This document shows positions 2,816 through 43,061 of a DNA stretch of 64,000 nucleotides, in pieces (within the stretch, counting starts at the first letter, position 1; each line of letters opens with the position of its first letter). The stretch spans positions 1 through 64,000 of the forward strand of contig CAIYID010000078.1 in the NCBI GenBank assembly GCA_903926205.1, written 5' to 3'. The notes under the pieces are model-generated. The model saw nothing but the letters and a program-made list of their open reading frames with translations. It made no database searches and had not been told where the DNA came from. The stretch comes from an uncultured Bdellovibrionales bacterium (GTDB lineage: Bacteria > Bdellovibrionota > Bdellovibrionia > Bdellovibrionales > Bdellovibrionaceae). The translations under genes were made by a program, and so were the position numbers.

Positions 2816-4132
2816 GTGATTAAACCAGTCAAAATTATTTTGTCGACAGTATTTCTGTGGGCAGCATTGACAGAAACGGCCTCGGCCCTTCCATCCTTCG
2901 CAAGACAAGAAGACGTGAACTGTTTTGCCTGCCATGCGATACCACCAAAATTGAATCGAGCCGGTTACGAATTCCGCGCGGCAGGTTACCGTGAGCCAGA
3001 AGAGATTGGTAAGCCCGCGTCCATCAGCGACGGAAGAAAAAGAGTGTCAGTGAGAGTCTCTGAGACCGCAACTTATACTCCGATGCCAATCGCCGGAGGA
3101 ACGACACCCGAAGTGATTCAAACTGGAGATACAGGTGGAACCACGGCTAAATTTTGGCCAGTGGCAGGAAGCTTCGGAGATAATTATGGACAGCGAACTG
3201 AAATAACGATTGCGACAAAACCAACCACAGGTGTTAATACAGCAACCCCTGCAAAAGGTACTGCGGTCACGACAGTTCCTCAAACGGCAGTGACTCTGAT
3301 TGATATTCGCTCTGCTTGGGGACAGTCTGATAACCATCTTAATGTTAGAGCTGGTGCGACAATGGGCCTAGTCAGTGGTTATGGAGCGGCAGACTCTTCA
3401 ATGTCTTCAAACAGTGTCGGAACTCCTGATCCTGTGTTTTTGTCAGGTACTAAAATAGGATCTAAGATCAGTTCCTCAAGCCCTGGCGTAGAAGTGGGTT
3501 ATACCTTTAAAGACCTCGATGTTGGTTTGGCCTCAGTGAATGGCTTGGAATATGATTACGTTGATCAGTCCTTGCATCCTAATAATAATGGTTATTCGGT
3601 GAGAGAAAACACGGATCCTTTGTACAACAGCCGAGATACTTATCTTCGATTCAATTACTTCCTTGGTAAGAAAAATGCCATCGGCGGGTATTACTATCAA
3701 GGAAATGTCAGCTTGCCGATCAATGCGACAGGGAAAACTCAAAAATACGCACTTGCCAATTATTCCGTTGATAATTTCACTCGCTATGCTCTGTATGGAA
3801 CTTATTATATCGATCGAAAAACGGCTTTGATGGGTGGAATGATTCAAGCAACGGATGCTTTCTATACCAATCCTTTGACGACTTCGAATAACTATTTCGT
3901 GTCACTTGATTTTTATAATGAGTGGGGCGCTTACGGAGTTCGTTATGATACCGGAACAGGAAATGTTGATGGAAATTTTGGTCTTACCTCAACGGACGCT
4001 TACATTGAGCTTTTCTCAAAATTGGGTTTTTGGGTTAAAGCGGATGTGTATTATAAAGATCAGCAAAATGGTAATACGACAGCAGATCTTATTACTGACG
4101 GTTTAACAATCACAGCAACTTATATATTTTAG
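2816..4132 (+). CDS. Fused monoheme cytochrome c / outer-membrane beta-barrel protein, Cyc2-like
   Basis: Protein of 438 residues with a GTG start preceded by AAGGAG. Residues 1-24 form a Sec signal peptide ending ASA. The mature N-terminus, LPSFARQ followed by C36-F-A-C39-H40 and then P-x-L-x-x-x-G-x-x-F-x-x-x-GY, binds one haem c. The remaining ~380 residues are Gly/Ser/Thr/aromatic-rich alternating strands and end in phenylalanine (TATYIF), as outer-membrane barrels do. This architecture, size and the FARQ...CxxCH...PxL block match the Cyc2 family of iron-oxidising outer-membrane cytochrome-porins; related barrels of unproved function also exist. A small cytochrome c follows 13 bases downstream, a plausible periplasmic electron partner. 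Extracellular Fe(II) or other electron uptake is inference. Confidence 0.72.
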   Translation: MIKPVKIILSTVFLWAALTETASALPSFARQEDVNCFACHAIPPKLNRAGYEFRAAGYREPEEIGKPASISDGRKRVSVRVSETATYTPMPIAGGTTPEVIQTGDTGGTTAKFWPVAGSFGDNYGQRTEITIATKPTTGVNTATPAKGTAVTTVPQTAVTLIDIRSAWGQSDNHLNVRAGATMGLVSGYGAADSSMSSNSVGTPDPVFLSGTKIGSKISSSSPGVEVGYTFKDLDVGLASVNGLEYDYVDQSLHPNNNGYSVRENTDPLYNSRDTYLRFNYFLGKKNAIGGYYYQGNVSLPINATGKTQKYALANYSVDNFTRYALYGTYYIDRKTALMGGMIQATDAFYTNPLTTSNNYFVSLDFYNEWGAYGVRYDTGTGNVDGNFGLTSTDAYIELFSKLGFWVKADVYYKDQQNGNTTADLITDGLTITATYIF

Positions 4133-5850: not shown

Positions 5851-7405
5851 ATTCCAAAACGTCTAGACTAGGCACCAAAACTTTGGCAATTTTCTCTGCG
5901 ACGCGAATGCCATCGCAGGCGGCGGAGGTGATTCCACCGGCGTAACCTGCGCCTTCACCGCAGGGGTAAAGTCCGAAATGGCTCACGGACTCCAAGGTAT
6001 TTTCATCGCGAGTCACTCGCACCGGGCAACTGGTTCTCGATTCAATACCGTAAAGTTGGGCGGTGGAGGAGATAAAACCGGGCATTTTATTTTCAAAGCT
6101 TTTTAGGCCTTGTTGAAAATATTGAGTCATAAATTTTGGCAATAAGTCATCCAGGCGCACCGCTTTTTCTCCGGAAGGCGAAGATCCTCGTCGTACCGTG
6201 CCTGTTTTGCCCGCAATAAAAGCTTGTAAGCTTTGCGCGGGGAGCTCTTTGGTGCCACCGGCTTTTTGCACCGCCAGGAAAGCTCTTTGCTCTAACTCCC
6301 GGCGAAATTCTAGGCCACCCAAAGTTTTTTTGCCAAAATTTAAATCATGATCGATCGTGATCACAATAGCGGAGTTCGCAAACGGGGAGTTTCGATTGAA
6401 GTTGCTCATGCCGTTGCAGACAAGGCCATCGGGCTCAGTGCCGCTGGAAAGAACATAGCCCCCCGGACACATGCAAAAGGAGTAGACTCCAGTTTTTGTT
6501 TTTTCATCATGATAAGTTAGGCGATAGTTGGCGGAGCCTAACTTTGGATGCGAAGCAAATTCGCGAAATTGAATTTGATTAATCTCTTGTTGTGAGTGCT
6601 CGATTCGAAGGCCCATCGCAAAAGATTTTCCTTCAAGAAAAACTCCTAACTCACTTAAATGTGTGAGCATATCCGTGGACGAATGCCCGGTAGCTAAGAT
6701 CACTTGCGAGCTTTGATACTCGAATCCTTTTTCTGTTTTGACTCCGGTGATTTGTTTTCCTTCAGTGAGAAGCTCGGTGACTTGCTCGTTAAATTTAATT
6801 TCGCAGCCATTCGCCAAAAGAAAATTTCGCAGTTGCGGAATCAAACGGCGGATTTTATCAGAGCCCACATGAGGATTGGAGAGATACTGGATTTCCTTCG
6901 GCGCACCAAATTTGACGAGGCGATGAAGAACATAAGGAATGTAGGGGCTCTTGATTCGGGTGATGAGTTTTCCATCCGAGTAAAGGCCCGCACCCCCCTC
7001 GCCAAAACAAACATTATTTCTACGATCAAGCTCCCCGTAGCGCCAAAACCGATTGATTCCGCGAATGCGTTCTTCGGACTGACTTCCGCGCTCGAGGAGT
7101 AAACAGGGGATACCTCGCTCTACTAAGCGAAGGGCCGCAAAAAGTCCCGCCGGGCCTGAGCCTATGATGATCGGTCGATTTGAAACTTTTTGATTCACTT
7201 TTTCGACCAAGTACTCAGGCTCAGGAAGGATTTCTCCTTTGCCTGCCACTTCGAGGGAGTACACAAATTTAGGTGAATGCCTTCGCCTTGCATCCACGCT
7301 TTGACGAAGAATGCGGTACGGCCCATGCTCTGGCACCATCCATTGCAGGCGTTCCTCAAGGTCTTCATCAATGCCTATTTCTAAATTTTGAATGATTCGC
7401 GACAT
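5834..7405 (-). CDS. FAD-dependent dehydrogenase of the COG2509 type
   Basis: Cytoplasmic flavoprotein of about 523 residues. A short N-terminal domain of about 70 residues precedes the Rossmann dinucleotide motif GSGPAGLFAALRLVERG near residue 80. Later conserved blocks include CFGEGGAGLYSDGKL, ILATGHSSTDM, CMCPGGYVLSSG and, at the C-terminus, LYPCGEGAGYAGGITSAACDGIRVAEKI, which closes the FAD site. This is the pattern of the widespread but uncharacterised FAD-dependent dehydrogenases. I start it at the ATG at 7405 (MSRIIQNL); an upstream in-frame start would add 16 residues without a clear ribosome binding site. The substrate is unknown. It is transcribed divergently from psd. Confidence 0.88.
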   Translation of the reverse strand: MSRIIQNLEIGIDEDLEERLQWMVPEHGPYRILRQSVDARRRHSPKFVYSLEVAGKGEILPEPEYLVEKVNQKVSNRPIIIGSGPAGLFAALRLVERGIPCLLLERGSQSEERIRGINRFWRYGELDRRNNVCFGEGGAGLYSDGKLITRIKSPYIPYVLHRLVKFGAPKEIQYLSNPHVGSDKIRRLIPQLRNFLLANGCEIKFNEQVTELLTEGKQITGVKTEKGFEYQSSQVILATGHSSTDMLTHLSELGVFLEGKSFAMGLRIEHSQQEINQIQFREFASHPKLGSANYRLTYHDEKTKTGVYSFCMCPGGYVLSSGTEPDGLVCNGMSNFNRNSPFANSAIVITIDHDLNFGKKTLGGLEFRRELEQRAFLAVQKAGGTKELPAQSLQAFIAGKTGTVRRGSSPSGEKAVRLDDLLPKFMTQYFQQGLKSFENKMPGFISSTAQLYGIESRTSCPVRVTRDENTLESVSHFGLYPCGEGAGYAGGITSAACDGIRVAEKIAKVLVPSLDVLESGPLS

Positions 7406-7506
7406 AGTCAGCTTATAGCACAGATTCGGAGTGATAAAACAGTTTATAAACAAGCCATTTGTGTTAGCTCTTGGCCTTTGGCTTTGGCTTTGCTAATTTG
7501 ACGGAC

Positions 7507-8340
7507 ATGCTTTGGATTCTAAAATTTTTACCACAAAATTGTTTAAGCACTTGGGTTGGGCGTCTCATGCATTGTCGATTGCCCGGACCCTTGCGACTTT
7601 TTTCCCTTAAGGCATTTGCCTCTTTTTACACGGTTAACTTGGCGGAGGCCGAAAATTCCATCGAAAGCTATCAAAGCATCGGGGCTTTTTTCGTGCGAAG
7701 ATTAAAGCCCGGAGCCCGACCTGTGGCTTCTGCAAAAGTTTTACATCCCGCCGATTCCGTGATCAGTGCGGCGGGAATTATCTCTCGAGGTGAAATGTTG
7801 CAAGTAAAGAGCCGTCCCTACTCGGTGGCACAAATTCTAGCTAGCTCTGCGCGCGCGCAAGCTTTGGAAGCGGGTTTCTTTGCCACCTATTATCTCTGTC
7901 CGACTGATTATCATCGAGTCCATTCGCCGGTGAGTGGAAAGATTATTTCCGTGGATCATCTTCCGGGAAGACTCTGGCCCGTTTTTAAAAAGAGTGTCGA
8001 AAGTATCGCGAATCTTTTTGCCGTGAATGAACGCATGGTGGTGACTATAGAAACTGAGCTTGGCTTGGTGTCTGTGGTTTTTGTCGGTGCTCTCAATGTG
8101 GGAAAAATCGAGCTGGCTTTTGATTCAGGGTTTTCTTCACAAGTTCCAGGCGTCAAAGAAAAGCGGACTCAGAACTACGCAATTCCAATTTCCATTCAAG
8201 CCGGTCAAGAGCTCGGGCTTTTTCAGATGGGCAGCACCGTGGTGGTTTTTTATCCGAAAGCTTTCGAATCGGTGCTGACAAAATCCCGCTGGGAAAGCCA
8301 AGTGGGCCAGGCCGTGAAAGTCGGATCTGGTTGTTATTAA
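7507..8340 (+). CDS. psd: Phosphatidylserine decarboxylase proenzyme
   Basis: Converts phosphatidylserine to phosphatidylethanolamine at the inner membrane. It is a proenzyme that cleaves itself at a Gly-Ser bond to create a pyruvoyl group; the site is visible as MGSTVVVFYPK near residues 240-250 (family LGST). Other family marks are ESIGAFFVRRLKPGARP, the PTDYHRVHSPVSGK block with its catalytic histidine, and FVGALNVGKIE. The length of 277 residues fits the family. I start at ATG 7507, matching the usual beginning of the enzyme; a TTG 36 bases upstream is in frame but less likely. No partner lipid gene is adjacent. Confidence 0.93.
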   Translation: MLWILKFLPQNCLSTWVGRLMHCRLPGPLRLFSLKAFASFYTVNLAEAENSIESYQSIGAFFVRRLKPGARPVASAKVLHPADSVISAAGIISRGEMLQVKSRPYSVAQILASSARAQALEAGFFATYYLCPTDYHRVHSPVSGKIISVDHLPGRLWPVFKKSVESIANLFAVNERMVVTIETELGLVSVVFVGALNVGKIELAFDSGFSSQVPGVKEKRTQNYAIPISIQAGQELGLFQMGSTVVVFYPKAFESVLTKSRWESQVGQAVKVGSGCY

Positions 8341-8398
8341 GAATATTATTTTGACAGTTATGTGAATTTTAAAAGGCATCGCCAAAATTCATTTTCAC

Positions 8399-8445
8399 TC
8401 CACGGTGAAGTACGGTGAAGCACGTCACGGTGAAGCTCAGCACAC
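8399..8445 (+). repeat. Short imperfect tandem repeats of CACGGTGAAG
   Basis: CACGGTGAAG, then TACGGTGAAG and CACGGTGAAG recur within about 45 bases downstream of psd, in a 160-base gap between convergent genes. No hairpin of terminator type is evident. Confidence 0.5.
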
Positions 8446-8500
8446 TTATTATGCACCTCCTCACTCATTATGGGTATCAATGGAGCGGAAAGAACCAGTT

Positions 8501-8860
8501 CTAAACTGGATAGGAACACTCCGTGGTCGTCGTTTCTGAAATCGAGACGCGACTCACAAGTGGCAGAGCCTTACGAGCATTTTCATAAAGCCAAACACAG
8601 AGGTTTTCTGTCGTGGGATTTTCTAAACCAAGGACCTCGTTAAGCACCTTGTGATCAATCAGTGCTAAAAGCGGTTTTAGCAGGGACTCGATTTCATTGT
8701 AATCAATGAGCCAACCCAAGCGAGGGTCCATTTCGCCCGTCAAAGTAAAGGTGATCTTAAATGAGTGCCCATGCATTTTGTGGCAGGGATGACTGACCGG
8801 CAAAAAAGGTAAAAACCTTGCGCTCTCAATTTGAAATTGCTGTTTTAGCTCAATTTTCAT
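8501..8860 (-). CDS. queD: 6-carboxy-5,6,7,8-tetrahydropterin synthase QueD
   Basis: Converts 7,8-dihydroneopterin triphosphate to 6-carboxytetrahydropterin, the second step of queuosine/7-deazaguanine synthesis. At 119 residues it has family length. The catalytic and zinc-binding residues are in place: HPCHKMHGHSF carries the active-site Cys and the zinc histidines, LIDHKVLNE carries Asp-His, and SETTTTEC carries the glutamate that binds the pterin. It faces a paralogue across only 14 bases between start codons, so the two promoters must overlap the opposing reading frames. Another queuosine gene, queG, lies about 21 kb away in this window. Confidence 0.93.
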   Translation of the reverse strand: MKIELKQQFQIESARFLPFLPVSHPCHKMHGHSFKITFTLTGEMDPRLGWLIDYNEIESLLKPLLALIDHKVLNEVLGLENPTTENLCVWLYENARKALPLVSRVSISETTTTECSYPV

Positions 8861-9403: not shown

Positions 9404-10498
9404 TCAGTTGAGTTTTCCTGATGAGATTTCCGAAGGCGTGAGCTCACGAAGAATTTTATAATTCCAAAAACAAATCACTCCAGGGTGAACCATCCAAGAA
9501 TTGACATTGTCTTCGACAATCGCGGGACTTCCGTCGCAGCTTTGACTGGCAAAGGTACCAAATTCTAAAACCTCAGAAATATGCCAGGACCAAGCGTTGT
9601 GAAGAGGATTTAAAAGATCTCGATTAAACTCTCCGTGACCTTGCTCAATTCTTCCGAAAAGAATTTTTCGCAGCTCGGGATTATTTATTTCTTTTCTGGC
9701 CTCCGCGATGAGTCGCGGGTCATGGGAATGAAAAACATAACTTTGGTCGTTCTCATGATTACTCATTAAAAAATACGTTTCCGCTGGATCAGGATTGAAA
9801 AGCTGTTCCGAAACGCTGGGCTTTAAAAATTGCTTTTGAGAATCATTTTTCCAATAAGCAGATAAAGGATATTGACCCTCTAGAGTGAACTGATCTCCCG
9901 GGTATAAGCGGAAATTAAGAGTGCGCTGCTCAAAACCATCCAGCGTGATTTCTTCGCCAGAGGGTTTTAGCCAAAGGTGCGTCCATTTCAAAATCACTTT
10001 TTGAGTGTTGGGTGAGAGATTAGCTAATTGCAATTGACCATCTTGTTCAGAAAGAACGCGAGGTAATTTCAAGGTTTCAGAACGACCTTCAGGTACCTTC
10101 AAAGTTTTTTCACCCATATTGGCTTTCGCGGTCACGGGTACAGATATATAGGACTTTACTTGAAACCAAGGCAAGGCTTTCACGGCGCTGATATCAATAG
10201 TTTTGCTTTCATGCGGAGCGAGCTCAATGATGGATTCTTCCACGAGGTGAGCAATGTCATCCGGAGAACTCAGCCAAAGACTTTGCGGCTGATCCGAATT
10301 ATTTTGTAAAAAAACGGAGTCCACCCCTTCCGTGGGGAGGAACCATGGCTGGGCCAGGCCTCGACAAACTGGTAGTAACAACATTATGAAGACCAAGACC
10401 TGGTGTAGCAGCCGAGGCTTGGACTTCAGTATGGGAATCGAGCTTATCTTTTGAGGAGGAAAGAGCTTGGCTCTTTCCTTTTGTCGAGTTTTGCTCAT
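9404..10498 (-). CDS. Secreted protein with BP74-like C-terminal domain
   Basis: Protein of 364 residues with a basic N-terminus and one hydrophobic segment near residues 32-50 ending GLAQ, probably a long signal peptide or signal anchor. The middle is beta-rich, with repeated stretches on attaching aliphatic and polar strands, and has no motif I recognise. The last ~110 residues (YVFHSHDPRLIAEARKE..., then HNAWSWHISEVLEFGTFASQSCDGSPAIVEDNV...) resemble the small domain found in secreted bacterial proteins and at the N-terminus of the Dictyostelium calmodulin-binding protein BP74. The start has an excellent ribosome binding site (AAGGAGGGG). Function is unknown; exposure at the cell surface is likely. 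Confidence 0.75.
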   Translation of the reverse strand: MSKTRQKERAKLFPPQKISSIPILKSKPRLLHQVLVFIMLLLPVCRGLAQPWFLPTEGVDSVFLQNNSDQPQSLWLSSPDDIAHLVEESIIELAPHESKTIDISAVKALPWFQVKSYISVPVTAKANMGEKTLKVPEGRSETLKLPRVLSEQDGQLQLANLSPNTQKVILKWTHLWLKPSGEEITLDGFEQRTLNFRLYPGDQFTLEGQYPLSAYWKNDSQKQFLKPSVSEQLFNPDPAETYFLMSNHENDQSYVFHSHDPRLIAEARKEINNPELRKILFGRIEQGHGEFNRDLLNPLHNAWSWHISEVLEFGTFASQSCDGSPAIVEDNVNSWMVHPGVICFWNYKILRELTPSEISSGKLN

Positions 10499-10713: not shown

Positions 10714-11013
10714 ATGACAGACGAAAAAAACCCAGGAATAACACTATTTGATTTTTCTAAAAACGGCGACAGTGGCCCTTTATCAGGCCCGCAGGGGAGT
10801 TCAGAGTCTTTACAAAAGTCAGCCTTAATCCTTGGTTTTTCCGGCCCACGATTGGTCACAGATCGACTCCAGGAATTTGGTATGCACAGTGGTTTGATGA
10901 TTCGTTATGTGGGAAGAGCTCCTTTTCAAGGACCTTTATTGTATCGGATGGGTGCCACGGTCGTGGCTTTACGGGAAGAGGAGGCACAATGTATTCTGAT
11001 CAATCCGCTCTAG
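10714..11013 (+). CDS. feoA: FeoA-like SH3-domain protein
   Basis: Small cytoplasmic partner of the ferrous iron transporter FeoB. Of 99 residues, the last ~65 form the FeoA fold: LQKSALILGFSGPRLVTDRLQEFGMHSGLMIRYVGRAPFQGP followed by VVALREEEAQCILI. The first ~30 residues are an unconserved polar leader (Asp/Ser/Gly-rich), so translation might begin later; no strong ribosome binding site precedes the chosen ATG. The gene overlaps feoB by 25 bases, which implies translational coupling. Fur-like repeats upstream suggest induction by iron limitation. Confidence 0.85.
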   Translation: MTDEKNPGITLFDFSKNGDSGPLSGPQGSSESLQKSALILGFSGPRLVTDRLQEFGMHSGLMIRYVGRAPFQGPLLYRMGATVVALREEEAQCILINPL

Positions 11014-12872
11014 ATTTGGTGGCCTTGGTCGGCGCTCCGAATGTGGGTAAAACGACACTTTACAATTGGCTTACTAACTCTAAATTCAAAACAGTGAATT
11101 ATCCTGGGGCGACAGTGGAGTATGCGGTCGGTCGGTCGGCCGAACGTTTGGAGGCCAATTGTTACTTTATGGATACACCAGGAACATACAGCCTTTTTCC
11201 AAAAAGTTCGGATGAAGAAGTCACTTTGCGAGCGCTCTATGATCAGCACGAACAAGGTCAAGTGAAAAAAATTATTTGTGTGGTGGATGGCTCCCAATTG
11301 GATCGTCATCTTCTTCTTGCAGAGCAAATTTATTTATCAGGTTTTCCCATGGTGCTTGTTGTGACCATGGCCGACTTATTAACAAAAAATAATTTGAAAT
11401 TGAATATTGAAGCCCTCGAGCAAAAATTCAATGGACCCGTGGTTTTATTTGACGGTGTTTTGGGTGGTGGCTTGAAAGAGTTGATCCAAAAAATGAAAGA
11501 ATTAGAACTCACGCAACCAACCAAATTACCAGCTTGGAGCCATGACCAAATTCAAGAAAAAATTGAAATGATCAGGGAATTGTCTTCCCGGGTGTACGGA
11601 GATGCGGATTCAAAATCTGTATACAAAAGAACTGAACAAGTGGATCGCTGGCTTCTGCATCAATATTTTGGACTGGCTTTTTTCTTTGTGATCATGTCAC
11701 TTTTGTTTAGTTCCATATTTTGGTTAGCAAAGCCTTTTATGGGGATGATCGATTTCAGCTTCACTTGGCTTGGGAATCAGGCTGTCGCTTTGGCTCCGAA
11801 TTCGCTCCTGACGGACTTCTTAGCTCATGGACTTATTGCTAGCCTTGGAGCGGTTTCAGTTTTTGCACCACAAATTTTCATTTTGTTTTTCGGTATTGGA
11901 ATTTTAGAAAGTACAGGTTATTTAGCCAGAGCGGCAACTTTGATTGATAAACCTTTTTCTAAATTGGGTTTAAGTGGTCGCAGCTTTGTGCCAATCCTGT
12001 CAGGCTTTGCTTGTGCAGTTCCAGCGATGATGGCGACAAGGAATATCTCTTCCAAGCGTGATCGCATGATCACTAATTTTATCATTCCGCTCATGACATG
12101 TTCGGCACGACTTCCGGTTTATGCTTTGCTTTTAAGTTTTGCTTTTAAGGATGCGGCGGCTTGGAAGCAGGGAGTGGCCTTGGCTCTACTTTATTTGGGT
12201 TCTTTATTTTTAGGTTCATTGGTGGCGGGAATCTTGAATAAGATTTTAGCAAAATCAGAGATGAGTCTCTTTATGATGGAACTTCCGATCTATCGAATTC
12301 CTCGTTGGAAAATACTTTTCCATGATAGTCTTTCGCGCACGAAAACTTATCTTTTACGCGCAGGACCAGTGATTTTTGTTTTTGCGGTGATCATTTGGGC
12401 CGGCACAACTTTTCCAAATTACTCAACGGAAAATAAGAGTGAAAAAATGGAATCCAGTTATTTAGGCCAAGTGGGTCGCTCGATTGGACCGGTCTTTGAG
12501 CCCATGGGAATCGATTGGCGAGTGGGCGCAGGGCTTCTCTCCGCCTTTGCCGCGCGTGAAGTTTTTGTTTCTTCGATGGCCATTGTTTTCAATGTCTCTG
12601 GCGAAGATGAAGAATCCCAAGCGCAGGGTTTGTTGAAATCAATGAAAGAAGCAAAGCTGCCGAATGGTCAGTTGCTTTTTACTCTGGCATCGGTGAGCGG
12701 TTTGATTGTTTTTTTTATGATTGCGCTTCAATGCATGTCCACTTTCTCGGTGGCTATCAAGGAAAATGGCTCTTGGAAGTTTGCCCTGATTCAGTTGATC
12801 AGCTTCAATGTGATTGGCTATATTTTGGCGGTGAGCGTGGTGCAAGGGTTTAAAAGTTTGGGTTTAGGCTAA
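10989..12872 (+). CDS. feoB: Ferrous iron transporter FeoB
   Basis: GTP-dependent Fe(II) importer of the inner membrane, 627 residues, shorter than the ~770 of enterobacteria. The N-terminal G domain shows the P-loop GAPNVGKTT at residues 15-23, switch I VNYPGATVEY, and the G3 motif DTPGTYSL. The usual G4 NxxD reads TMAD, a departure worth noting. From residue ~225 there are two GATE-type membrane domains with the conserved blocks GRSFVPILSGFACAVPAMMATR and GIDWRVGAGLLSAFAAREVFVSSMAIVF. It overlaps feoA. Thirty-odd bases behind it begins an SD-masking hairpin before the next gene, so the kinase-like gene may be cotranscribed. Confidence 0.95.
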   Translation: MYSDQSALDLVALVGAPNVGKTTLYNWLTNSKFKTVNYPGATVEYAVGRSAERLEANCYFMDTPGTYSLFPKSSDEEVTLRALYDQHEQGQVKKIICVVDGSQLDRHLLLAEQIYLSGFPMVLVVTMADLLTKNNLKLNIEALEQKFNGPVVLFDGVLGGGLKELIQKMKELELTQPTKLPAWSHDQIQEKIEMIRELSSRVYGDADSKSVYKRTEQVDRWLLHQYFGLAFFFVIMSLLFSSIFWLAKPFMGMIDFSFTWLGNQAVALAPNSLLTDFLAHGLIASLGAVSVFAPQIFILFFGIGILESTGYLARAATLIDKPFSKLGLSGRSFVPILSGFACAVPAMMATRNISSKRDRMITNFIIPLMTCSARLPVYALLLSFAFKDAAAWKQGVALALLYLGSLFLGSLVAGILNKILAKSEMSLFMMELPIYRIPRWKILFHDSLSRTKTYLLRAGPVIFVFAVIIWAGTTFPNYSTENKSEKMESSYLGQVGRSIGPVFEPMGIDWRVGAGLLSAFAAREVFVSSMAIVFNVSGEDEESQAQGLLKSMKEAKLPNGQLLFTLASVSGLIVFFMIALQCMSTFSVAIKENGSWKFALIQLISFNVIGYILAVSVVQGFKSLGLG

Positions 12873-12879
12873 GTTCATA

Positions 12880-12915
12880 GGCCTCCTTCTTGCAATTCTC
12901 CTTTAGCAGGAGGCC
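12880..12915 (+). promoter_or_regulatory. Hairpin sequestering the ribosome binding site of the ABC1-like gene
   Basis: GGCCTCCT (12880-12887) is a perfect complement of AGGAGGCC (12908-12915), which contains the Shine-Dalgarno sequence; the ATG is at 12918. A second, local hairpin competes: CTCCT (12898-12902), loop TTAGC, AGGAG (12908-12912). Either fold would mask the ribosome binding site. No U-tract follows, so it is not an ordinary terminator of feoB. Confidence 0.65.
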
Positions 12916-12917
12916 AA

Positions 12918-15900
12918 ATGTATTGGCTTGTAGTCGGACTGACTATTTTCTATACAGCTGCTCAACCAATAGCGGCCCTTAGACGGTATAAGACTTATTT
13001 TTCAAAATACGTTTTTGCTGCTCTTCTTTTCTTCTCCTCTCATCTCCTCTCCTCAGTGGTATTAGGGGACTCAAATTTCGATTCCAAGAGCTCCTTAGGA
13101 GATTTTTTTAACTCTGTAGTGACTCAAATAAAAAACGCCAATCAAGAGCTGGGTGGCGAGAAATATTTATATTCTCCTGAGGTCGAAATTACCAATGACT
13201 TACAGCCTAATCTTCACTCCACTTTTTCATTTCCAAAAGGCGGGGAAAGAGAACTTGCTCAGAAAATTCAGTTAAGTCGAGGCTTCTTTGACGGGCTCCT
13301 TAGAGAATCAAGTGGTCACGAAAATATTCAACGAGGTCTTCATTTGTCCGTCGGTGCGATTGCGTTGGAAGTGGCCAAAGCCACCTTGGCGATTAAATCG
13401 GGAGCCATTCCACAGGCTTTACCTCAATCATCATCGGCAAAATTGACCGCTGAACAAATAATTAGAGCCGATCTTTTGGCGACCCAGTTTTTGCGTCATT
13501 CAAATCTTCCCATTGATGCTGTTTATGAATATCTTTCCTTTAAAAAGAATAATTCAAAAAATCAAAATCCTAATCCTTCTGCGACAAATTCTTCATCTCA
13601 AACCGATCTGCGATTGACCGCTTTACGTCTGTCAATTGGAACATCTCTTTTTGAATTTGGAGATAATGGAATTAAAAATATAAAAATTAGTACAAACGAA
13701 GAAGGTTTTTTATTACAAGAGCACACGGCTCAAATGCAGCAACTTCAGATGCAGCCCACTCAATTGAACGAAGCTGTGGATAAATTCACAGATACGAATG
13801 ATGCAAAACCACTGATAGATAAATTTCAATTATTAGCCAGACTTCCAGATCTGCTGAAAGCCAAAGTTTTCAACACCTCAATTCGAGACGAACTAATAAG
13901 AAAAATCCCAACAGCAAAATTAAATGTTATAAAACGTATGGTATTATTTAAGATATTTACTATTGTTCCTCCCACGACGAATACAGATTATTTTTTCCAA
14001 ACTCAGATTGAACCTTATTTGGGAGACCCCCGCCTGAACCCAGAGCAGAAAAGAAAGTTACTTGAAGCCATTTTAAAACAGAATAAACTTCTCTCAGATC
14101 GCCTGATTTCGCCTCTAGCAAAGCAGCTGGTCTTTCATAAATATTCGCAGCCAAAAACAGAAGCTGAAATTAAAGAGGCTTTTGCTTATTTGCAAGAATT
14201 GATGCCGACACCGTCTCAGGGAAAAGATAAGATTCTTGAAGCTTTGGGCTGGAAGTTCCAGCTTTCTGGGCAAAACTTAAAAAATTTAGTTGAGGACCAA
14301 AAATCTAAGAATGTCGATCAGGTAAAACTCAATGCTGAAAAATTCTTTTTTTTAAAATCAGAGGTTGTTTCTCACTTCTCCAGTGAATCAAAATTTGAAA
14401 TTTTGCGGTACCTTCAAGATCCCTTGGAAGCAAATTTCCGTCCCAAGCCAATTCGCCAAGAACTTTATCAAAACCTTCTTGCGGATCTGGCAAAAGCAGA
14501 GGGCGGAGGCCGGGTGACGGCGGAGGTTAACTACAAAGCCAAGTTCTTAATCGAGAAGTTACAGCTTTTTGCTTATCAATCAGAGCCAATGCAAAGAATT
14601 CCGGTCATTGATTATCTTCTTACTTCTTCTCAGGCGCCTCTTATTCAAGATTCTGGATTTCGAGATAAAATTTTAAGAGAGCTTTTGAATATCAAGCCTG
14701 GAACGATTGAAGAGGCTTCGCTGGCGGCGTATTTAGATATCTCTCGACCTGCTTATTTGAGCTTGGTTTATAGTTATCTTCTGAGTCAAAAGGCGAGCGG
14801 TTCAGCGGGCATTGCTCAAAGATTTGAAGTTTTTCAAGCTGTTGGAAAAAAATTTGGACAGCTGAGCTCAATCTGGAAAATTTTTGGAGAAGAAGTGGCA
14901 AAGGAGAGTAAGCATTTAAAAAATAATGCCGAAGCCTTGAGCTTGTATGAGATTCAAGAGATCGTAAATAGCACTCTTACGAAAGAGCAGCGAAGCCATA
15001 TTAAAAAATACATTCGGATTTTAGGTGCCGCCAGTATGAAGACCGTCGTACTCGTTGAGCTAACAAATGGCGAATTTGGAGCGCTGATGGTTCAGGGTAA
15101 AAATAATCCAGCCCAAATTGAATCAGGATTGAGGCTTGGTAAACAGTATATAGAAGCTTTTAGTCGCTATAAGTTTTTTGGTACATCGGTTTTATTTTCA
15201 ACCCTTATAGAGGCTCTCGAACAGCAAATGAGAGATGAAGTACGAATGAAACTAGAAGCTGAAAAGCAAAAACAAGCTAAAATACTCATCGAAAAAATAA
15301 ATCAAGAAATGGCTACTGAGCTGCAGGGATGGCAGTTTGAAGCACCAACTATTTACGAGGCCACAGGGATCTATGATAATGTCTACATTTCTAGTGTTGC
15401 CAACGGTCAGTCTTACGATGAACTGAACGAAATGGATAAAATGGTGACGGGTGAGCTCATTGTAAAGATGAAAATGAAAATGTTCTTTCACCATGGTTGG
15501 CTTGAACCTGATCGGCACACAGGGAATTGGATCATTGATGTAAAAAGCAAAAAAATTCGCATGATTGATTTTGGTCAATTGCAAAATTTTAGCGCCGAAG
15601 AAGCCTGGACAAAATGGGATGCGCGTTTGACCTTAGCAGGATTTCTACAAGCCATTAGCGAGAAAAAAGCAGCGGATATTGTTCGTTATGGAAACCAGAT
15701 GAAAAAAGATGAGCGGGTATTTGATAAATTGGCAATGCAGAACAAGATTCAATCAGTGTTAGATAAAAACTTAGAGCTTTCGGATCTTTTAACCGAAATT
15801 GTGCAAAGTTTTTCAGAGCAAGGGGTTTCTTTCGATAAAATATATAGTTTTGGTGCCTTGAAGGGTCTGATGGTTCTTTATGGTGAGCGCTATGTTACGG

Positions 15901-16133
15901 ATGAAAAGTTTCGAGAAATAGTTAAAACGGAATTAGTTTCTCTTTATAAGTCGAAAATTGGAGCAGTGGTTGGAGAAAATATTCAAAAATATTTTGAGAA
16001 AAAAGAAGAAAAGAAGAATAATTCAAAGCCTAAAGAGGCTGTTTCCTTGATACAAGAATCTGCTGCAAAAGAATCAATTACTAAATTTTCGACGACTTCA
16101 ACGGTCCGCTGTGAAAGGGTTCTCAGTCACTGA
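12918..16133 (+). CDS. Very large ABC1/ADCK (UbiB)-like atypical kinase with N-terminal membrane segment
   Basis: 1071 residues. Two hydrophobic stretches at ~1-20 and ~30-50 suggest a signal anchor or hairpin; ~550 residues of mostly helical, unassigned sequence follow. The last third carries UbiB-family landmarks in order: KFGQ near residue 645 (family KxGQ), LGAASMKTVVLVEL near 695 (family Ala-rich AAASIGQV loop), GALMVQGKN (family VAVKVQRPG, with the usual Lys replaced by Met), HHGWLEPDRHTGNW near 857 (family HADPHPGN, with Asp, His and Gly-Asn kept) and MIDFGQL near 882 (DFG). UbiB proteins bind nucleotide and support ubiquinone synthesis; this one is about twice their size. The lysine loss leaves catalysis doubtful. 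Translation may be controlled by the hairpin at its start. Confidence 0.75.
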   Translation: MYWLVVGLTIFYTAAQPIAALRRYKTYFSKYVFAALLFFSSHLLSSVVLGDSNFDSKSSLGDFFNSVVTQIKNANQELGGEKYLYSPEVEITNDLQPNLHSTFSFPKGGERELAQKIQLSRGFFDGLLRESSGHENIQRGLHLSVGAIALEVAKATLAIKSGAIPQALPQSSSAKLTAEQIIRADLLATQFLRHSNLPIDAVYEYLSFKKNNSKNQNPNPSATNSSSQTDLRLTALRLSIGTSLFEFGDNGIKNIKISTNEEGFLLQEHTAQMQQLQMQPTQLNEAVDKFTDTNDAKPLIDKFQLLARLPDLLKAKVFNTSIRDELIRKIPTAKLNVIKRMVLFKIFTIVPPTTNTDYFFQTQIEPYLGDPRLNPEQKRKLLEAILKQNKLLSDRLISPLAKQLVFHKYSQPKTEAEIKEAFAYLQELMPTPSQGKDKILEALGWKFQLSGQNLKNLVEDQKSKNVDQVKLNAEKFFFLKSEVVSHFSSESKFEILRYLQDPLEANFRPKPIRQELYQNLLADLAKAEGGGRVTAEVNYKAKFLIEKLQLFAYQSEPMQRIPVIDYLLTSSQAPLIQDSGFRDKILRELLNIKPGTIEEASLAAYLDISRPAYLSLVYSYLLSQKASGSAGIAQRFEVFQAVGKKFGQLSSIWKIFGEEVAKESKHLKNNAEALSLYEIQEIVNSTLTKEQRSHIKKYIRILGAASMKTVVLVELTNGEFGALMVQGKNNPAQIESGLRLGKQYIEAFSRYKFFGTSVLFSTLIEALEQQMRDEVRMKLEAEKQKQAKILIEKINQEMATELQGWQFEAPTIYEATGIYDNVYISSVANGQSYDELNEMDKMVTGELIVKMKMKMFFHHGWLEPDRHTGNWIIDVKSKKIRMIDFGQLQNFSAEEAWTKWDARLTLAGFLQAISEKKAADIVRYGNQMKKDERVFDKLAMQNKIQSVLDKNLELSDLLTEIVQSFSEQGVSFDKIYSFGALKGLMVLYGERYVTDEKFREIVKTELVSLYKSKIGAVVGENIQKYFEKKEEKKNNSKPKEAVSLIQESAAKESITKFSTTSTVRCERVLSH

Positions 16134-24418: not shown

Positions 24419-24448
24419 AAAGCTCATGTTTTGACATGAGCTTTTGTC
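24419..24448 (+). terminator. Intrinsic terminator after the LysM gene
   Basis: AAAGCTCATG (24419-24428), loop TTTTGA, CATGAGCTTT (24435-24444), then TTGTC. A perfect ten-pair stem; the T-tract is short. Confidence 0.7.
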
Positions 24449-24507
24449 ATTTCGTACACATAGAGAGCTTAATTTTAAGAAAGTCTTCAGCCAAAGGAGA
24501 ATCATCG

Positions 24508-26574
24508 ATGACTATGGAATCCTTCTTATTAACCCCCTTTCTTGCCGGTATAATCGGCTTGTTGATCGCTCTCGGATTTTATTTTCGAGTGAAAGCCCAG
24601 CCAGCGGGCAATGAAACCATGAACCGCATTGCGAACTATATTCGTGAAGGAGCATTAGCTTTCCTCGTTCGTGAATACAAAGTTCTTACAATTTACGCCG
24701 TGGTGGTGGGAATTGCCTTAGCACTCACTCTAGGGCCAATTGCGGCAGGGAGTTTTTTACTAGGAGCTTTCTTAAGTTTACTTGCAGGTTTTTTTGGTAT
24801 GAAGGCAGCGACTTACGCGAACGTTCGTACCACGCAAGCCGCAGCAACAGGCTCTAAGGGAGCCGCTCTTTTAGTGGCCCTCGATGGTGGCGCGGTGATG
24901 GGACTTGCAGTCGCAGGCCTTGGTTTGATCGGCCTCATGACGATTTATCTTTTATTCCGTGACAGTGAGAATGTCGGCACGGTTCTGCACTCTTTTGCCG
25001 TGGGAGCAAGTTCGATCGCGCTTTTTGCTCGTATCGGTGGCGGTATTTATACGAAGGCCGCTGATGTTGGTGCGGATATCGCAGGTAAAGTGGTGCAAGG
25101 AATTCCGGAAGATGATCCTCGCAATCCCGGTGTTATCGCGGACAACGTGGGCGACAATGTCGGCGACGTGGCGGGAATGGGTGCGGATATTTATGAGTCC
25201 ATGGTGGCGGCAATTGTTGCTGCGATGGCCATTGCACTGACCGTGCAACCAGCTCAGCTCAAACAATTAATGACCGATGGCACTCCTGAAAAAATTGTTC
25301 AGTGGACAGGTATTTTTCTTCCCTTGCTGCTTTCTGGTTTTGGTTTAGCGATTTCAATTGTAGTTATCTTTGCCGCGCGAGCTTTTCGCCAAGTGAAACC
25401 GGCCACGGTTTTGCGTAGCGCTTTGATGGTTCCTCCAGTGATTTTAACCATTGGTGCCGCGATGATTCTTCCGCTCTTTAATGTCACACAAGCGGTGACC
25501 ATTGCTTTAGCGGCAGGAGCTTTTGGTGGCGCGCTCATCGGTCTAGTCACAGAGTATTACACGGCATGGAAACCTATTCGCCAAGTGGCGGAAGCCAATC
25601 TTCAAGGCGGAGCGGCAACAGGTGTGATTCGTGGTTTGGCGGTAGGGATGGAGTCTGTGGCTCTTCCTCTGGCGATCGTTATTTTGGCGGCCTACATCGC
25701 AGACCATTTCCTTGGTTTGTATGGTATTGCGATTTCTGCAGTGGGTATGTTGGCAGGAACCGCGGTTGTGATGACCGTGGATGCTTATGGTCCAATTGCA
25801 GATAACGCTGGAGGAATTTCTGAGATGTCTGGTCTTGGAAAAGAAGTTCGGGATATCACAGACGAGTTGGATGCCGTAGGAAATACGACGGCAGCCATCG
25901 GTAAAGGCTTTGCAATAGGCTCTGCGGTGCTAACAGTGCTCGCACTGTTTTCCGCTTTTAATATGGAAGTGAATCATATTCGGGAGCTCAAGGGTTTAGC
26001 GAAAATGTCTTTGGATCTGACTTCTTCAGGTGTTTTGATCGGTCTTTTGATCGGTTCAATTTTACCTTATTTGGTGGGTTCAACAACCATGATTGCGGTA
26101 GGGAATGCAGCCCAAAAAATCGTGGGTGAAATTAAACGACAGTTTGCTGAAATTCCTGGTTTGATGGAATTAAAAGCAGAACCACAACCGAAAATCATCG
26201 TCGATATTGCGACTCAAGCGGCTTTAGTGGAAATGATCATTCCTGGTTTGATTGCGGTTTTAGCTCCAGTGTTTGTTGGTTTTATTTTAGGACCACAGGC
26301 TTTGGCTGGGATGCTCGCGGGAGCGCTTGCGGTGGGAGCGTCAATGGCACTCTTCATGGCAAATGCTGGTGGAGCTTGGGATAATGCTAAAAAATTCATC
26401 GAAAAGGGCGGACTTCCTGGTCACAAAAAAGGCTCTGAAGTTCATAAGGCCGCAGTCATCGGTGACACCGTTGGTGATCCCTTCAAAGACACTTCTGGTC
26501 CTGGGGTCGCGATTTTAATTAAAGTGATGTCAGTCGTGAGCCTTTTGATCGCACAATTGATCGCTACTTTTTAA
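24508..26574 (+). CDS. hppA: Membrane-bound ion-pumping pyrophosphatase, K+-dependent subtype
   Basis: Couples pyrophosphate hydrolysis to H+ and/or Na+ export at the inner membrane, 688 residues with about 16 helices. The catalytic blocks are [38 protein letters not shown] near residues 185-225, [16 protein letters not shown] near 430, and [14 protein letters not shown] plus [14 protein letters not shown] near the C-terminus. At the subtype-defining site the sequence is [16 protein letters not shown]: Ala rather than Lys, which marks K+-dependent enzymes. Pumped ion cannot be decided by eye. The ATG at 24508 follows AAAGGAGAA; an earlier in-frame start would overlap the terminator. Confidence 0.94.
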
Positions 26575-36413: not shown

Positions 36414-37640
36414 CTATCTCTCGTACCAATATACAATTCGTGGAGGGCCTTTGGAAGCAGAATTATTGCTATTTTTGGAATTCGGTTGTGAAGTTCCCGC
36501 ACCAGAAGAACTTCCACCGCCGGGAATTGAGGAACTCACTTCTGTTTTTAATAAAGTGTAGCTCTGTGAGGCGGATTTGGCGACATCAAAGACGACCGCA
36601 ACGATTTCGCTGGTGGTGTTTTTGTAAGAGCCCGTCGAAGTGATTCTAAAATTGTAAACAGTGTCAGTAAGAATGGGAATCATTTTTTGTTTGTTTGAAT
36701 CGATTCTTACACCTTGAGAACTCACGAAACTCCAGAAATCATTTGGATCTTTAAAGGGCCCACCGGCATTCGCTTCTTCTCTGCGTTTGATGATTTCATC
36801 AGCGACTTTACTGGTGATCGAGGCGTCCAAGGCCATCAAAACATCTTTTGAAGCATTGTTTGGATTGATTCCTTTCATTCCGAAAACCGTGACTTGATCT
36901 CGAATGAGTTCAAAAGCTTCTTCAGTCATACCTGGTACTAATCGAATTTCATCCACCGTTCGAAAACCACGATTCGGAGGAAAATATTCTCCCAAACTAG
37001 AAAATTTTGAAGCTTTATCTCCACCCTTGGCGCTTTGATTGCTCGGAGTGACCCAATCTTGAATAGCATCCACTAAATCTCCGGGACTTAGGTCTTGATG
37101 AGAGCGAGCCCATTTTTCATCATCTCGATTTTTATTTTCAAAAATACGAAGCAGTTGTTCGCGGGTGGCATCGCGAACGCCTTTGCTTGGCCCCCACAAA
37201 GAATTGATATCAATTTTTGAACCCTCGTCAGAGATCGTGGCCATGTAATTGCCATCCATTGAACTGTCTTTGGTTTTTTCTTCAATCATTTCTTTTTGCA
37301 CTTGATTGAGACCATCTGGAGTCATTGGTGGCCAGGAAAAAGGCATTTTCCAAATCATGTCGAGGAGCTCTTGTTTCACCAGGCCTTTGGCTTGTGCGGC
37401 CACTTGACTATTCACCTGAGAATAAATTTTGATGCGTAAGAGTGATAATTCCATGCCTGCACGAGCCGCGTAATAAGCTTTCACGCGATTCACGGCTGCA
37501 GAGTTGACTAAATATTCCACGTTAGTTTCATAAGCGAGCTCTGTGGCAAGATAGCTCACCAACAAGATAGTGAACATCGCTAAAATCAAGGCGACTCCGC
37601 GTTCAGAGTTTTGATTATGACTTCGTTTAAAAAACCTCAT
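36414..37640 (-). CDS. gspK: Type II secretion minor pseudopilin GspK
   Basis: 408 residues. The prepilin-like N-terminus ERGVALILAMFTILLVSYLATELAYE is cut after Gly and lacks Glu5, as usual in GspK. DEGSKIDINSLWG, PGDLVDAIQDWVTPSNQSAKGGD and NRGFRTVDEIRLVPGMTEEAFELI followed by GINPNNASKDVLMAL are the characteristic GspK helical-insert blocks. The C-terminus carries a Ser/Gly/Asn-rich tail (GGGSSSGAGTSQPN) before a final hydrophobic strand. GspK caps the pseudopilus tip with GspI and GspJ. Its start overlaps gspJ's stop. Confidence 0.9.
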   Translation of the reverse strand: MRFFKRSHNQNSERGVALILAMFTILLVSYLATELAYETNVEYLVNSAAVNRVKAYYAARAGMELSLLRIKIYSQVNSQVAAQAKGLVKQELLDMIWKMPFSWPPMTPDGLNQVQKEMIEEKTKDSSMDGNYMATISDEGSKIDINSLWGPSKGVRDATREQLLRIFENKNRDDEKWARSHQDLSPGDLVDAIQDWVTPSNQSAKGGDKASKFSSLGEYFPPNRGFRTVDEIRLVPGMTEEAFELIRDQVTVFGMKGINPNNASKDVLMALDASITSKVADEIIKRREEANAGGPFKDPNDFWSFVSSQGVRIDSNKQKMIPILTDTVYNFRITSTGSYKNTTSEIVAVVFDVAKSASQSYTLLKTEVSSSIPGGGSSSGAGTSQPNSKNSNNSASKGPPRIVYWYER

Positions 37641-38548
37641 GGACCAGTCCCTCCAGGCGTTGGCATTCCGCCAGCAGCGCCAGTGGTGGCGGTTTGTGGC
37701 GAGGGATTGTTTGGAAAACGAACAGGCGCAATGATTTGCATCGAGACTTTTTTCTTTTTATCGCCTTCACCTTTAGTGATCGCTAAAGAAATTTCCACGG
37801 TTTCAGGGAAATAACCTTTTGTTCCGGCGTCGCCAATTTTTGAATTCCAGTCGGTGACCCATTCTTGCTTATTAACACCAATGTAGCGCAATTTATATTC
37901 AGAAATATTCTCTAATAAAACAGAGGCCGGTCCATTGATCGTGATGTCGCCTTCGACAAGAGGGGAGGCGCTTCGCAAAAGGCATTTGCTGGTGTGTCCG
38001 GTTTCTCCAGGTTTTTTACAATCAGAAAGATAATAGCCCACCTTAATAAAATCAGCTTGAGGAATATCTTCGGAAAGTCGTGGGGCATTCATTGTAACAA
38101 AGTGAACTTCTTCATTGCTCCCGATAAAATCGGTGGTCGGATCCCGCCGTTTGGGGTCCATCGCCATCCATTGATTGAGAGAAGCTTGCATCATTTGCTG
38201 TGCTTGCGCTTGGCCCGATGAGGCTCCGGAGGTACCAGCCGATCCTGAGGAGGCTCCGGGAGAGGTTCCAGAAGCCACTCCCGGTGATTGAGGGGTGGTA
38301 CTTCCTGATTTTTGCACGGCTTGTTTGAATTCCATTTCAATATCGCGATAGTGCATGGCAAGGTTAATATCTTTTTCCATGACTCGCAAAGCATCGCGGA
38401 CAGACGACATGTCTTCCACTTGCTCTTGAATTTTTACTTTCGCTTTAAGTCCATTTTGAATGCTTTGATTGGAAAAAAGCATCAATGTCGCCAAAATCGT
38501 GATGGCGATCATCAATTCTAAAAGAGTAAAACCCTGCTGCTTTTGCAT
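37637..38548 (-). CDS. gspJ: Type II secretion minor pseudopilin GspJ
   Basis: 303 residues. The prepilin peptidase site QQGFTLLELMIAITILATLMLF is canonical, with Phe at +1 and Glu at +5. A globular domain follows, interrupted at about residues 82-112 by a Ser/Gly/Ala/Pro low-complexity stretch not normal for the family. LRYIGVNKQEWVTDWNSKIG and the P-x-x-VEISLAIT block are typical of GspJ. The C-terminus ends in a Pro/Gly/Thr-rich tail. It forms the pseudopilus tip complex with GspI and GspK. Confidence 0.88.
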   Translation of the reverse strand: MQKQQGFTLLELMIAITILATLMLFSNQSIQNGLKAKVKIQEQVEDMSSVRDALRVMEKDINLAMHYRDIEMEFKQAVQKSGSTTPQSPGVASGTSPGASSGSAGTSGASSGQAQAQQMMQASLNQWMAMDPKRRDPTTDFIGSNEEVHFVTMNAPRLSEDIPQADFIKVGYYLSDCKKPGETGHTSKCLLRSASPLVEGDITINGPASVLLENISEYKLRYIGVNKQEWVTDWNSKIGDAGTKGYFPETVEISLAITKGEGDKKKKVSMQIIAPVRFPNNPSPQTATTGAAGGMPTPGGTGP

Positions 38549-39061
38549 TTAGGGCCCCGTTCCGGGCAAGCCAATGGGTTTGTCATAATCCACAAAGTAA
38601 GTGGTGGCCGATACCGAGATACTTTTTTTGGGATGTTTATAGGTCACCGTGACTTTAACTTCTTTGATGCATTTTGAAAGTTGGTCCGTCAGTTGCTTGA
38701 CGATTTGTAGAGTCATCTGGTCAACACCGCCATCACGAGCCGAAAGCGTCGAAGCAAGATCTGGAAACTCCATTTTTTTTGAATTCATTTTCCAAGAATA
38801 TTGAGGATAATTATCTCCAAAATCGTCGGACTCTTCCTCTTGAATTTGATCCAAGGGTTTTCCTTTGTATTGGCGCACATAATCGTCCATTTTTCGTTCG
38901 AGAAGTGAAGCTAATTCAAAACGGACTTGAGTTTTTTTTACGCGATTAAAGGCCGCCGACCAGCTTTCGGAGAGCAGGACTAATGCTGTTGAAAGTAAAA
39001 CCATCGCTAGTAAAACTTCAAGTAAGGAAAATCCAGATTTATGAGTGAGAGTTTTATTCAT
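38549..39061 (-). CDS. gspI: Type II secretion minor pseudopilin GspI
   Basis: 170 residues. Prepilin site KSGFSLLEVLLAMVLLSTALVLLSES; the hydrophobic helix is followed by a globular domain with KKTQVRFELASLLERKMDDYV, then a long insertion and a beta-rich end. The ATG at 39061 overlaps the gspH stop as ATGA, showing translational coupling; longer readings lie inside gspH. The protein nucleates the pseudopilus tip. Confidence 0.85.
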   Translation of the reverse strand: MNKTLTHKSGFSLLEVLLAMVLLSTALVLLSESWSAAFNRVKKTQVRFELASLLERKMDDYVRQYKGKPLDQIQEEESDDFGDNYPQYSWKMNSKKMEFPDLASTLSARDGGVDQMTLQIVKQLTDQLSKCIKEVKVTVTYKHPKKSISVSATTYFVDYDKPIGLPGTGP

Positions 39062-39648
39062 TTTATTTCTAACTCTTGTAACGTAACTGGTTTTGAAATC
39101 ATATCGGCGTGTCCGGTGAGGGGATTGAAAACTAAGGACCAAGTCAGGTCTTTGCCATCAGTCAGTTGGACCACCGACTGATCCACGAGGCCTTCAGGAG
39201 AAAAATAAATGTAGGCGGTGCCTTTAGTGATGGGCTCTGCGTGAGATTTGGTTTCGACACTTTTTATAAAAAGATTGCTCGGAAGAAATCTTTCTTGTTT
39301 GAGCGGCTTATCAACTTTGCTAAACGGAGAAGAGGGTTTGTCTTCCTTGTTCATTTCATCTTCTAATTTTTGATGAGCCGCTGATTTTACCATGACCGCA
39401 TGATTCGATGCCTCGACAAAATAAGAATCCTCTTTGCCTTTGAGATTAAAAACGATGCGATAGGTGGCATTTTTTAGTCGGGCATAGTGACGAACTTCGA
39501 TAGATAAAACGGAAAGTTCGCGCATAAAAGATTTGATGTTAGAATTACTTTTCTTGAGTTTGGGGACCGCGATACCCATGATGGCGGCCAGAATTGCAAC
39601 CACCAACATGATTTCAACAAGGGTGAAGCCTCGTGAATTTCTCCCCAA
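39058..39648 (-). CDS. gspH: Type II secretion minor pseudopilin GspH
   Basis: 196 residues. Prepilin site NSRGFTLVEIMLVVAILAAIMGIAVPKL, then a beta-rich domain with the GspH/FimT-like RELSVLSIEVRHYARLKNATYRIVFNL. A charged loop of about 30 residues (EDEMNKEDKPSSPFSKVDK) is longer than usual. Start is adjacent to gspG's stop. GspH joins the tip to the GspG shaft. Confidence 0.88.
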   Translation of the reverse strand: MGRNSRGFTLVEIMLVVAILAAIMGIAVPKLKKSNSNIKSFMRELSVLSIEVRHYARLKNATYRIVFNLKGKEDSYFVEASNHAVMVKSAAHQKLEDEMNKEDKPSSPFSKVDKPLKQERFLPSNLFIKSVETKSHAEPITKGTAYIYFSPEGLVDQSVVQLTDGKDLTWSLVFNPLTGHADMISKPVTLQELEIK

Positions 39649-40074
39649 TTAATTCATGTCCTCATTGGTAATTTCTTTTCCCTTATAGGTGGTCTTGAGC
39701 AAGGGAGAACCGTTGGAAACTTCGTAGGTGAAGTCGTGACCCCAGCCATCTTTGGGGATCTTTTTCAAATAGGGATCTGGTCCCCAGTTCGGACAGTCCG
39801 CATCCGGTTTTGATAAAGCATCCAAAGTTGTTGGAATTTTTTGACAATCGATTTGATAGCCGTTGATCGCTTGCGTGATTTGGCTCATCGCAATTTTGGT
39901 TTCCTTCATACTGGCGCGATTCATGGCGCCTTGAATTTGCGGCAAGAGCATGGCCATCAAAGCACCAATGATGGCTAACACGATCATGATTTCCATCAAA
40001 GTCATACCGGACTGGTTGAGTGAGTTATTATTTTTTTGATTTGGATTTTTTTGAGTTAATTTAAATTGCAGCAT
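39649..40074 (-). CDS. gspG: Type II secretion major pseudopilin GspG
   Basis: 141 residues; main pseudopilus subunit. The leader of about 22 residues is long and Asn/Gln-rich. Cleavage after SG leaves Met at +1 (MTLMEIMIVLAIIGALMAMLLP), with Glu at +5; Phe is commoner at +1. PDADCPNWGPDPYLKKIPKDGWGHDFTYEVS is the conserved calcium-binding C-terminal segment of GspG. The ribosome binding site is AGAGGGG. Confidence 0.93.
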   Translation of the reverse strand: MLQFKLTQKNPNQKNNNSLNQSGMTLMEIMIVLAIIGALMAMLLPQIQGAMNRASMKETKIAMSQITQAINGYQIDCQKIPTTLDALSKPDADCPNWGPDPYLKKIPKDGWGHDFTYEVSNGSPLLKTTYKGKEITNEDMN

Positions 40075-40106
40075 AATCCCCTCTGTGTAGAGCGTTTGAT
40101 TCTAAA

Positions 40107-41327: not shown

Positions 41328-41352
41328 TCAATTAAGTCTGAGCTGGAAAACA

Positions 41353-43047: not shown

Positions 43048-43061
43048 GTGACTCGTTTTTC

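Follow-up and report, generated by a model that had tools for sequence, protein, structure and literature searches.

We found that a gene of an uncultured Bdellovibrionales bacterium (positions 12918–16133, forward strand, of the 64,000-nucleotide stretch of DNA analysed, hereafter the window) encodes a 1071-residue protein in which an export signal or membrane anchor, a decayed M48 metallopeptidase domain, a helical middle region and a UbiB/COQ8-type kinase domain appear to follow one another, and in which K708, a lysine of the Ala-rich loop, probably replaces the missing β3 lysine (for this reading as a whole we estimate a probability of roughly 0.6). The predicted domains and their order, the loss of the β3 lysine shared with relatives and the conservation of K708 follow from sequence comparisons and structure models. 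The frame, placed by the first-pass annotation at the same positions, starts with ATG and is open through all 1071 codons, and a Shine-Dalgarno-like AGGAGG (12908–12913) lies just 5′ of it; all features of the gene given here are on the forward strand. A FeoB-like ferrous iron transporter gene (10989–12872, same strand) stops 45 bases upstream of the ATG, and the two genes may be on one transcript.

The C-terminal part of the protein is recognized by the Pfam ABC1 profile (PF03109; residues 667–895, positions 14916–15602) with a score of 50.4 bits (cut-off 22.9; E = 2.2e-13). The motifs of the family appear in the family order: KxGQ (K645-F-G-Q648; 14850–14861), the Ala-rich loop (G703-A-A-S706), the β3 segment (G721-A-L-M724-V-Q), the catalytic loop (P864-D-R-H-T-G-N870, 15507–15527, including the DxHxGN motif D865-R-H-T-G-N870) and DFG (D884-F-G886; 15567–15575). 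The catalytic Asp and Asn, D865 and N870, and the DFG Asp D884 are thus all present. The ExD motif, however, reads E774-V-R776, with the Glu kept and the Asp lost, and M724 (15087–15089) replaces the lysine of the β3 VAVK motif (PKA position 72). An AlphaFold2 model of residues 590–1040, computed from a six-row alignment, reached a pLDDT of 82.3 and a pTM of 0.82. Foldseek placed COQ8A structures best (E down to 4.6e-13), and VIA-align superposed the model on COQ8A over 354 residues (model residues 38–424; Z 26.8, rmsd 3.9), the next family being the RIO kinases (Z 11.9); identity in the structural alignments with UbiB/COQ8/ABC1 kinases was 13–16%. The model has a kinase-like fold with the UbiB-type helical N-terminal extension. 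A profile of 12 family members searched against PDB sequences likewise found COQ8B, COQ8A, Rv3197 and MSMEG_1954 (E 1.6e-17 to 1.3e-11). The first-pass annotation had read a UbiB-like fold in the last third, the motif order and the lost VAVK lysine from the letters, and had named a C-terminal third lacking a kinase fold as the outcome that would speak against it; since the model has such a fold, with COQ8A as its best match, that observation stands.

The same annotation had called the protein an unusual form of its family, and comparison with known members (COQ8A structures 4PED, 5I35 and 7UDP; MSMEG_1954; Rv3197) supports this. The protein shares with them the fold including the helical KxGQ extension, the KxGQ motif itself, the place of the Ala-rich loop, the αC Glu, the Glu of ExD, the catalytic loop and DFG. 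Unlike them, it is predicted to be exported, carries an M48-like domain and helical repeats on the same chain, lacks the β3 lysine and the Asp of ExD, and has a lysine at loop position 55. Against the NCBIfam UbiB equivalog (2-polyprenylphenol 6-hydroxylase, TIGR01982) it scored 45.9 bits, far below the cut-off of 487.55.

In an alignment with one COQ8A, K708 (15039–15041) falls opposite the Gly of AAASIG, and M724 opposite its Lys. K708 occupies PKA position 55, the position of the catalytic lysine in WNK1; the WNK1 stretch reads GRGSFKTV and that of the window protein GAASMKTV, both within G-x-x-S-x-K-T-V, and M724 and K708 together give the WNK-type arrangement of no lysine at 72 and a lysine at 55. 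According to the available text of PMC4718504, the catalytic lysine of WNK1 is K233, and COQ8A has KxGQ, ExD, the Ala-rich loop and a K358–E411 bridge; the available text of PMC1821047 describes how, in WNK, the charge has moved from position 72 to position 55, and gives UbiB as G55-to-A (COQ8A and WNK1 numbering is from these two sources). The latter text also describes Met at 72 with Arg at 55 in CAK-chloro, which the Met72 and positive residue 55 of the window protein resemble, and, for choline kinase, the pair Asn55/Arg72, which recurs in a sister clade of the window protein (see below). WNKs, however, are protein kinases of eukaryotes and belong to a different family, and CAK-chloro and choline kinases are other kinase-like families of small-molecule kinases, whereas the swap seen here sits in a UbiB-type fold. 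In the portions available to us of the literature on UbiB together with WNK1, we found no report of a lysine move in UbiB.

Across an alignment of 12 members of the family, 16 columns do not vary, among them those of K708, E774, E780, N870 and D884; the β3 column does. We then tallied the loop and β3 residues over 46 rows, 32 from the family and 14 of the ordinary UbiB-type rows. Ala or Gly in the loop with a β3 lysine was found in 16 rows (all 14 ordinary ones and two of the family), lysine at both positions in seven, all of the family, and a loop lysine with another residue at β3 in 15; loop Asn accompanied β3 Arg in five rows and Thr, Leu or Asn in three. None of the 46 rows combined the ordinary small loop residue with absence of the β3 lysine. 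On a tree of the 14 ordinary rows and 32 of the 35 family rows (L059, a near copy of L058, and the fragments L061 and L062 were omitted, and L018 was used as it is, with its 5′ side cut by an insertion-sequence-like gene), the window protein lies in a 14-row clade (support 99/98) where the β3 lysine is found in none and the loop lysine in 13. Both lysines are absent from L107, within this clade, and from L057, outside it; L055 and L060 also lack the β3 lysine, though nested in a clade of double-lysine relatives. In the sister clade (L104, L109, L111, L112, L113 and L117) position 55 is Asn, and β3 carries Arg in five of the six. The counts of loop/β3 pairs are not independent, because the β3 loss is common by descent: there are three state changes at β3 and five at the loop, and a sign test on independent pairs gave p = 1, having no power. 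Given the seven rows with both lysines, the loop lysine alone does not prove replacement. The loop lysine at the WNK position, together with N55/R72 in the sister clade, nevertheless makes the nucleotide site look rebuilt, not lost, and, as judged from these alignments, WNK-like and choline-kinase-like solutions both occur within the family.

The first-pass annotation had suggested a pseudokinase, which these data make no longer the best reading. In its strict form, the UbiB fold would serve an exported scaffold only for binding or for handling lipids, and the loop lysine would have some other role; we regard this as unlikely, while taking it as a serious rival. The absence of the β3 lysine from all 14 rows of the clade, the two relatives with neither lysine, the replaced Asp of ExD and the loss of HExxH from the window protein as well (see below) would all fit, as would export to an ATP-poor compartment; the periplasm normally contains little ATP, which counts against any nucleotide-using kinase there. 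It is, however, difficult to see why a dead site should hold K708, E774, E780, N870 and D884 invariant across 12 divergent members, place its loop lysine at the one position used by WNK kinases and, in the sister clade, acquire the N55/R72 pair of choline kinases, since compensating pairs are not expected to persist in a dead site. If, as we prefer, K708 replaces the β3 lysine, it would take over that residue's job, in a presumed geometry comparable to that of K233 in WNK1, by forming a salt bridge to E780 and contacting phosphate. The domain would still bind nucleotide and would probably turn it over or phosphorylate a small molecule or lipid, and the KxGQ extension would bar protein substrates, as described for COQ8A.

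The approximately 600 residues ahead of the kinase motifs, which the first-pass annotation left unassigned, can now be attributed to a degenerate M48 domain (by profile) and helical repeats (in a model). They are preceded by a 19-residue hydrophobic stretch (residues 31–49; 13008–13064), located directly after RRYKTYFSKY. A second, weaker hydrophobic stretch can be read at residues 2–20, and the topology with an exported C-terminal part is thus likely but not certain. Among 30 family rows taken as 5′-complete, a hydrophobic stretch close to the N-terminus is present in 29, and hardly any row has a further one (L110 has no obvious signal in the frame used), which supports an exported or anchored N-terminus. 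A profile of the N-termini of five relatives matched the window protein at residues 108–297 (13239–13808) with 33.5 (domain) to 35.0 (whole) bits, ranking it first of 842 frames and shuffles, the next best of which scored 9.3 bits. The window protein itself did not match Pfam M48 (PF01435); seven of 13 relatives scanned are above the cut-off of that profile, and 10 of the same 13 are above that of ABC1. HExxH occurs within the first 260 residues in 19 of the 30 family rows; among the long frames of the window's own genome, it does so in 1 of 127. At this place (13365–13379) the window protein reads L150-E-V-A-K154; unlike M48 metallopeptidases it has lost both histidines, and residues ~108–297 are therefore a putatively dead M48 domain. 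The peptidase domain of relatives may be live.

In the full-length AlphaFold2 model, about residues 320–620 (13875–14777) form solenoid-like helical repeats (pLDDT about 49–87 per 10-residue block), and the N-terminal 286 residues are at low confidence; a fold search with this model returned nearly all kinases among the best 50 rows, and one weak Vps34-complex row was set aside. Binding of a substrate or partner would fall to the helical repeats together with the putatively inactive peptidase domain, and the protein would act in the periplasm or farther out, for instance on other cells. The window also contains type II secretion genes (36414–45425, reverse strand; GspK-like and the secretin GspD), a possible export route for the protein. 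A loose functional parallel, for lipid-related work, is offered by plant plastoglobules, where, in the available text of PMC3635846 and PMC12587418, ABC1K kinases and the M48 peptidase PGM48 share a lipid droplet; those, however, are separate plastid proteins.

The only cysteine of the window protein, C1065 (16110–16112), is the seventh residue from its end. This is a family-wide feature: 29 of the 33 family rows with a complete 3′ end have a Cys among their final 20 residues (the exceptions being L018, L106, L115 and L116), and in nine rows, the window protein among them, the translated stretch contains no other Cys. The base rate is 66 of 392 ORFs, which a simple script predicted in the window and in 20 stretches of the same genome; the naive binomial p is 7e-19, a value that ignores kinship. 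The wider idea that such a Cys marks exported proteins in general gained no support: 23 of 130 export-like ORFs carry one, about as many as expected by chance. One guess is that the terminal Cys ties the protein to a partner or surface, through a disulfide or otherwise.

Among 59 near genomes, 10 had some match, and besides the genome of the window only three (G006, G042 and G040) hold a clear relative (E 4.7e-39 or better). Wider profile searches were run at the level of the order (140 genomes) and of the phylum (368 genomes); at least 285 of the 368 matched, which is not a count of the family because ordinary UbiB genes match too. The family set analysed comprises 35 ORFs or pieces, the window protein included, from 29 genomes of Bdellovibrionota, and further long open frames lie outside it (for example, 1482 residues in G171 and 1707 in G174). 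The loop pattern LG[SAG][AG]S[IMV]K[TS]V[VT], run over the species collection, found 17 stretches, five of which are relatives; named members are metagenome-assembled genomes of Bdellovibrionales (two), Bdellovibrionaceae, Bdellovibrionia and one 'Proteobacteria bacterium'. The single-protein search for related loci yielded 53 stretches matching a pattern and no relatives, none of 49 viral contigs had a relative, and we found no literature linking Bdellovibrio, ABC1 and M48. The family is a divergent, patchy group of large, putatively exported proteins in Bdellovibrionota. No neighbour gene recurs around it in more than two genomes. In the window itself we also noted a protein with a BP74 N-terminal domain (9404–10498; 77.5 bits), a membrane proton-pumping pyrophosphatase (24436–26574; H_PPase, 789 bits) and a 438-residue ORF with no Pfam match at 1e-5 (2816–4132). 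The genome has a second ABC1-like gene (positions 6029–7805 of locus L020, reverse strand), which is split over two frames, apparently frameshifted, and whose product ends in VYCKSLF, like family members.

At 1071 residues, the window protein is the shortest complete member; the others have 1380 to 3350 residues, most about 1550–1750. One could therefore suppose that its gene is a decaying copy, a shortened, half-dead remnant with no present function. Besides its length (most relatives have about 1650 residues), the lost HExxH, the lack of a match in the sole other genome of the genus (54% complete) and the interruption of the G042 relative (positions 6183–8520 of locus L018, reverse strand, with the catalytic Asp also changed to Glu) by an insertion-sequence-like gene point that way. 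We nevertheless think this improbable: the 1071 codons are open and have a ribosome-binding site, all kinase-domain invariants and the terminal Cys are retained, and L102, L103, L055 and L056 also lack HExxH, yet are long and intact. Finally, an ordinary, N-terminally anchored UbiB-like protein facing the cytoplasm and serving quinone biosynthesis, to which the UbiB fold and a possible hairpin of the two N-terminal hydrophobic stretches would be suited, was rejected as very improbable, because the NCBIfam cut-off is missed, the genome already has a separate ordinary UbiB-like gene (L021, 557 residues, E = 2.8e-74), the positive linker RRYKTYFSKY favours an exported C-terminus, and nearly all family rows have a single N-terminal hydrophobic stretch.

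Extended from the window protein to its relatives, the reading we prefer leads to a more speculative proposal, in which we place little confidence: that Bdellovibrionota have an exported UbiB-fold family whose ATP site was rebuilt twice (WNK-like with K55, and choline-kinase-like with Asn55/Arg72), coupled to M48, fixed by the terminal Cys and acting outside the cytoplasm on substrates of the periplasm, the envelope or foreign cells. What chemistry the widespread UbiB/COQ8 proteins carry out is still a matter of debate. A family in which the canonical lysine is lost, most residues of the site are kept and natural double-lysine members exist alongside offers a ready test of how this lysine functions in a UbiB fold. 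If true, the export of a UbiB-type kinase linked to an M48 protease would give the fold a new place of work.
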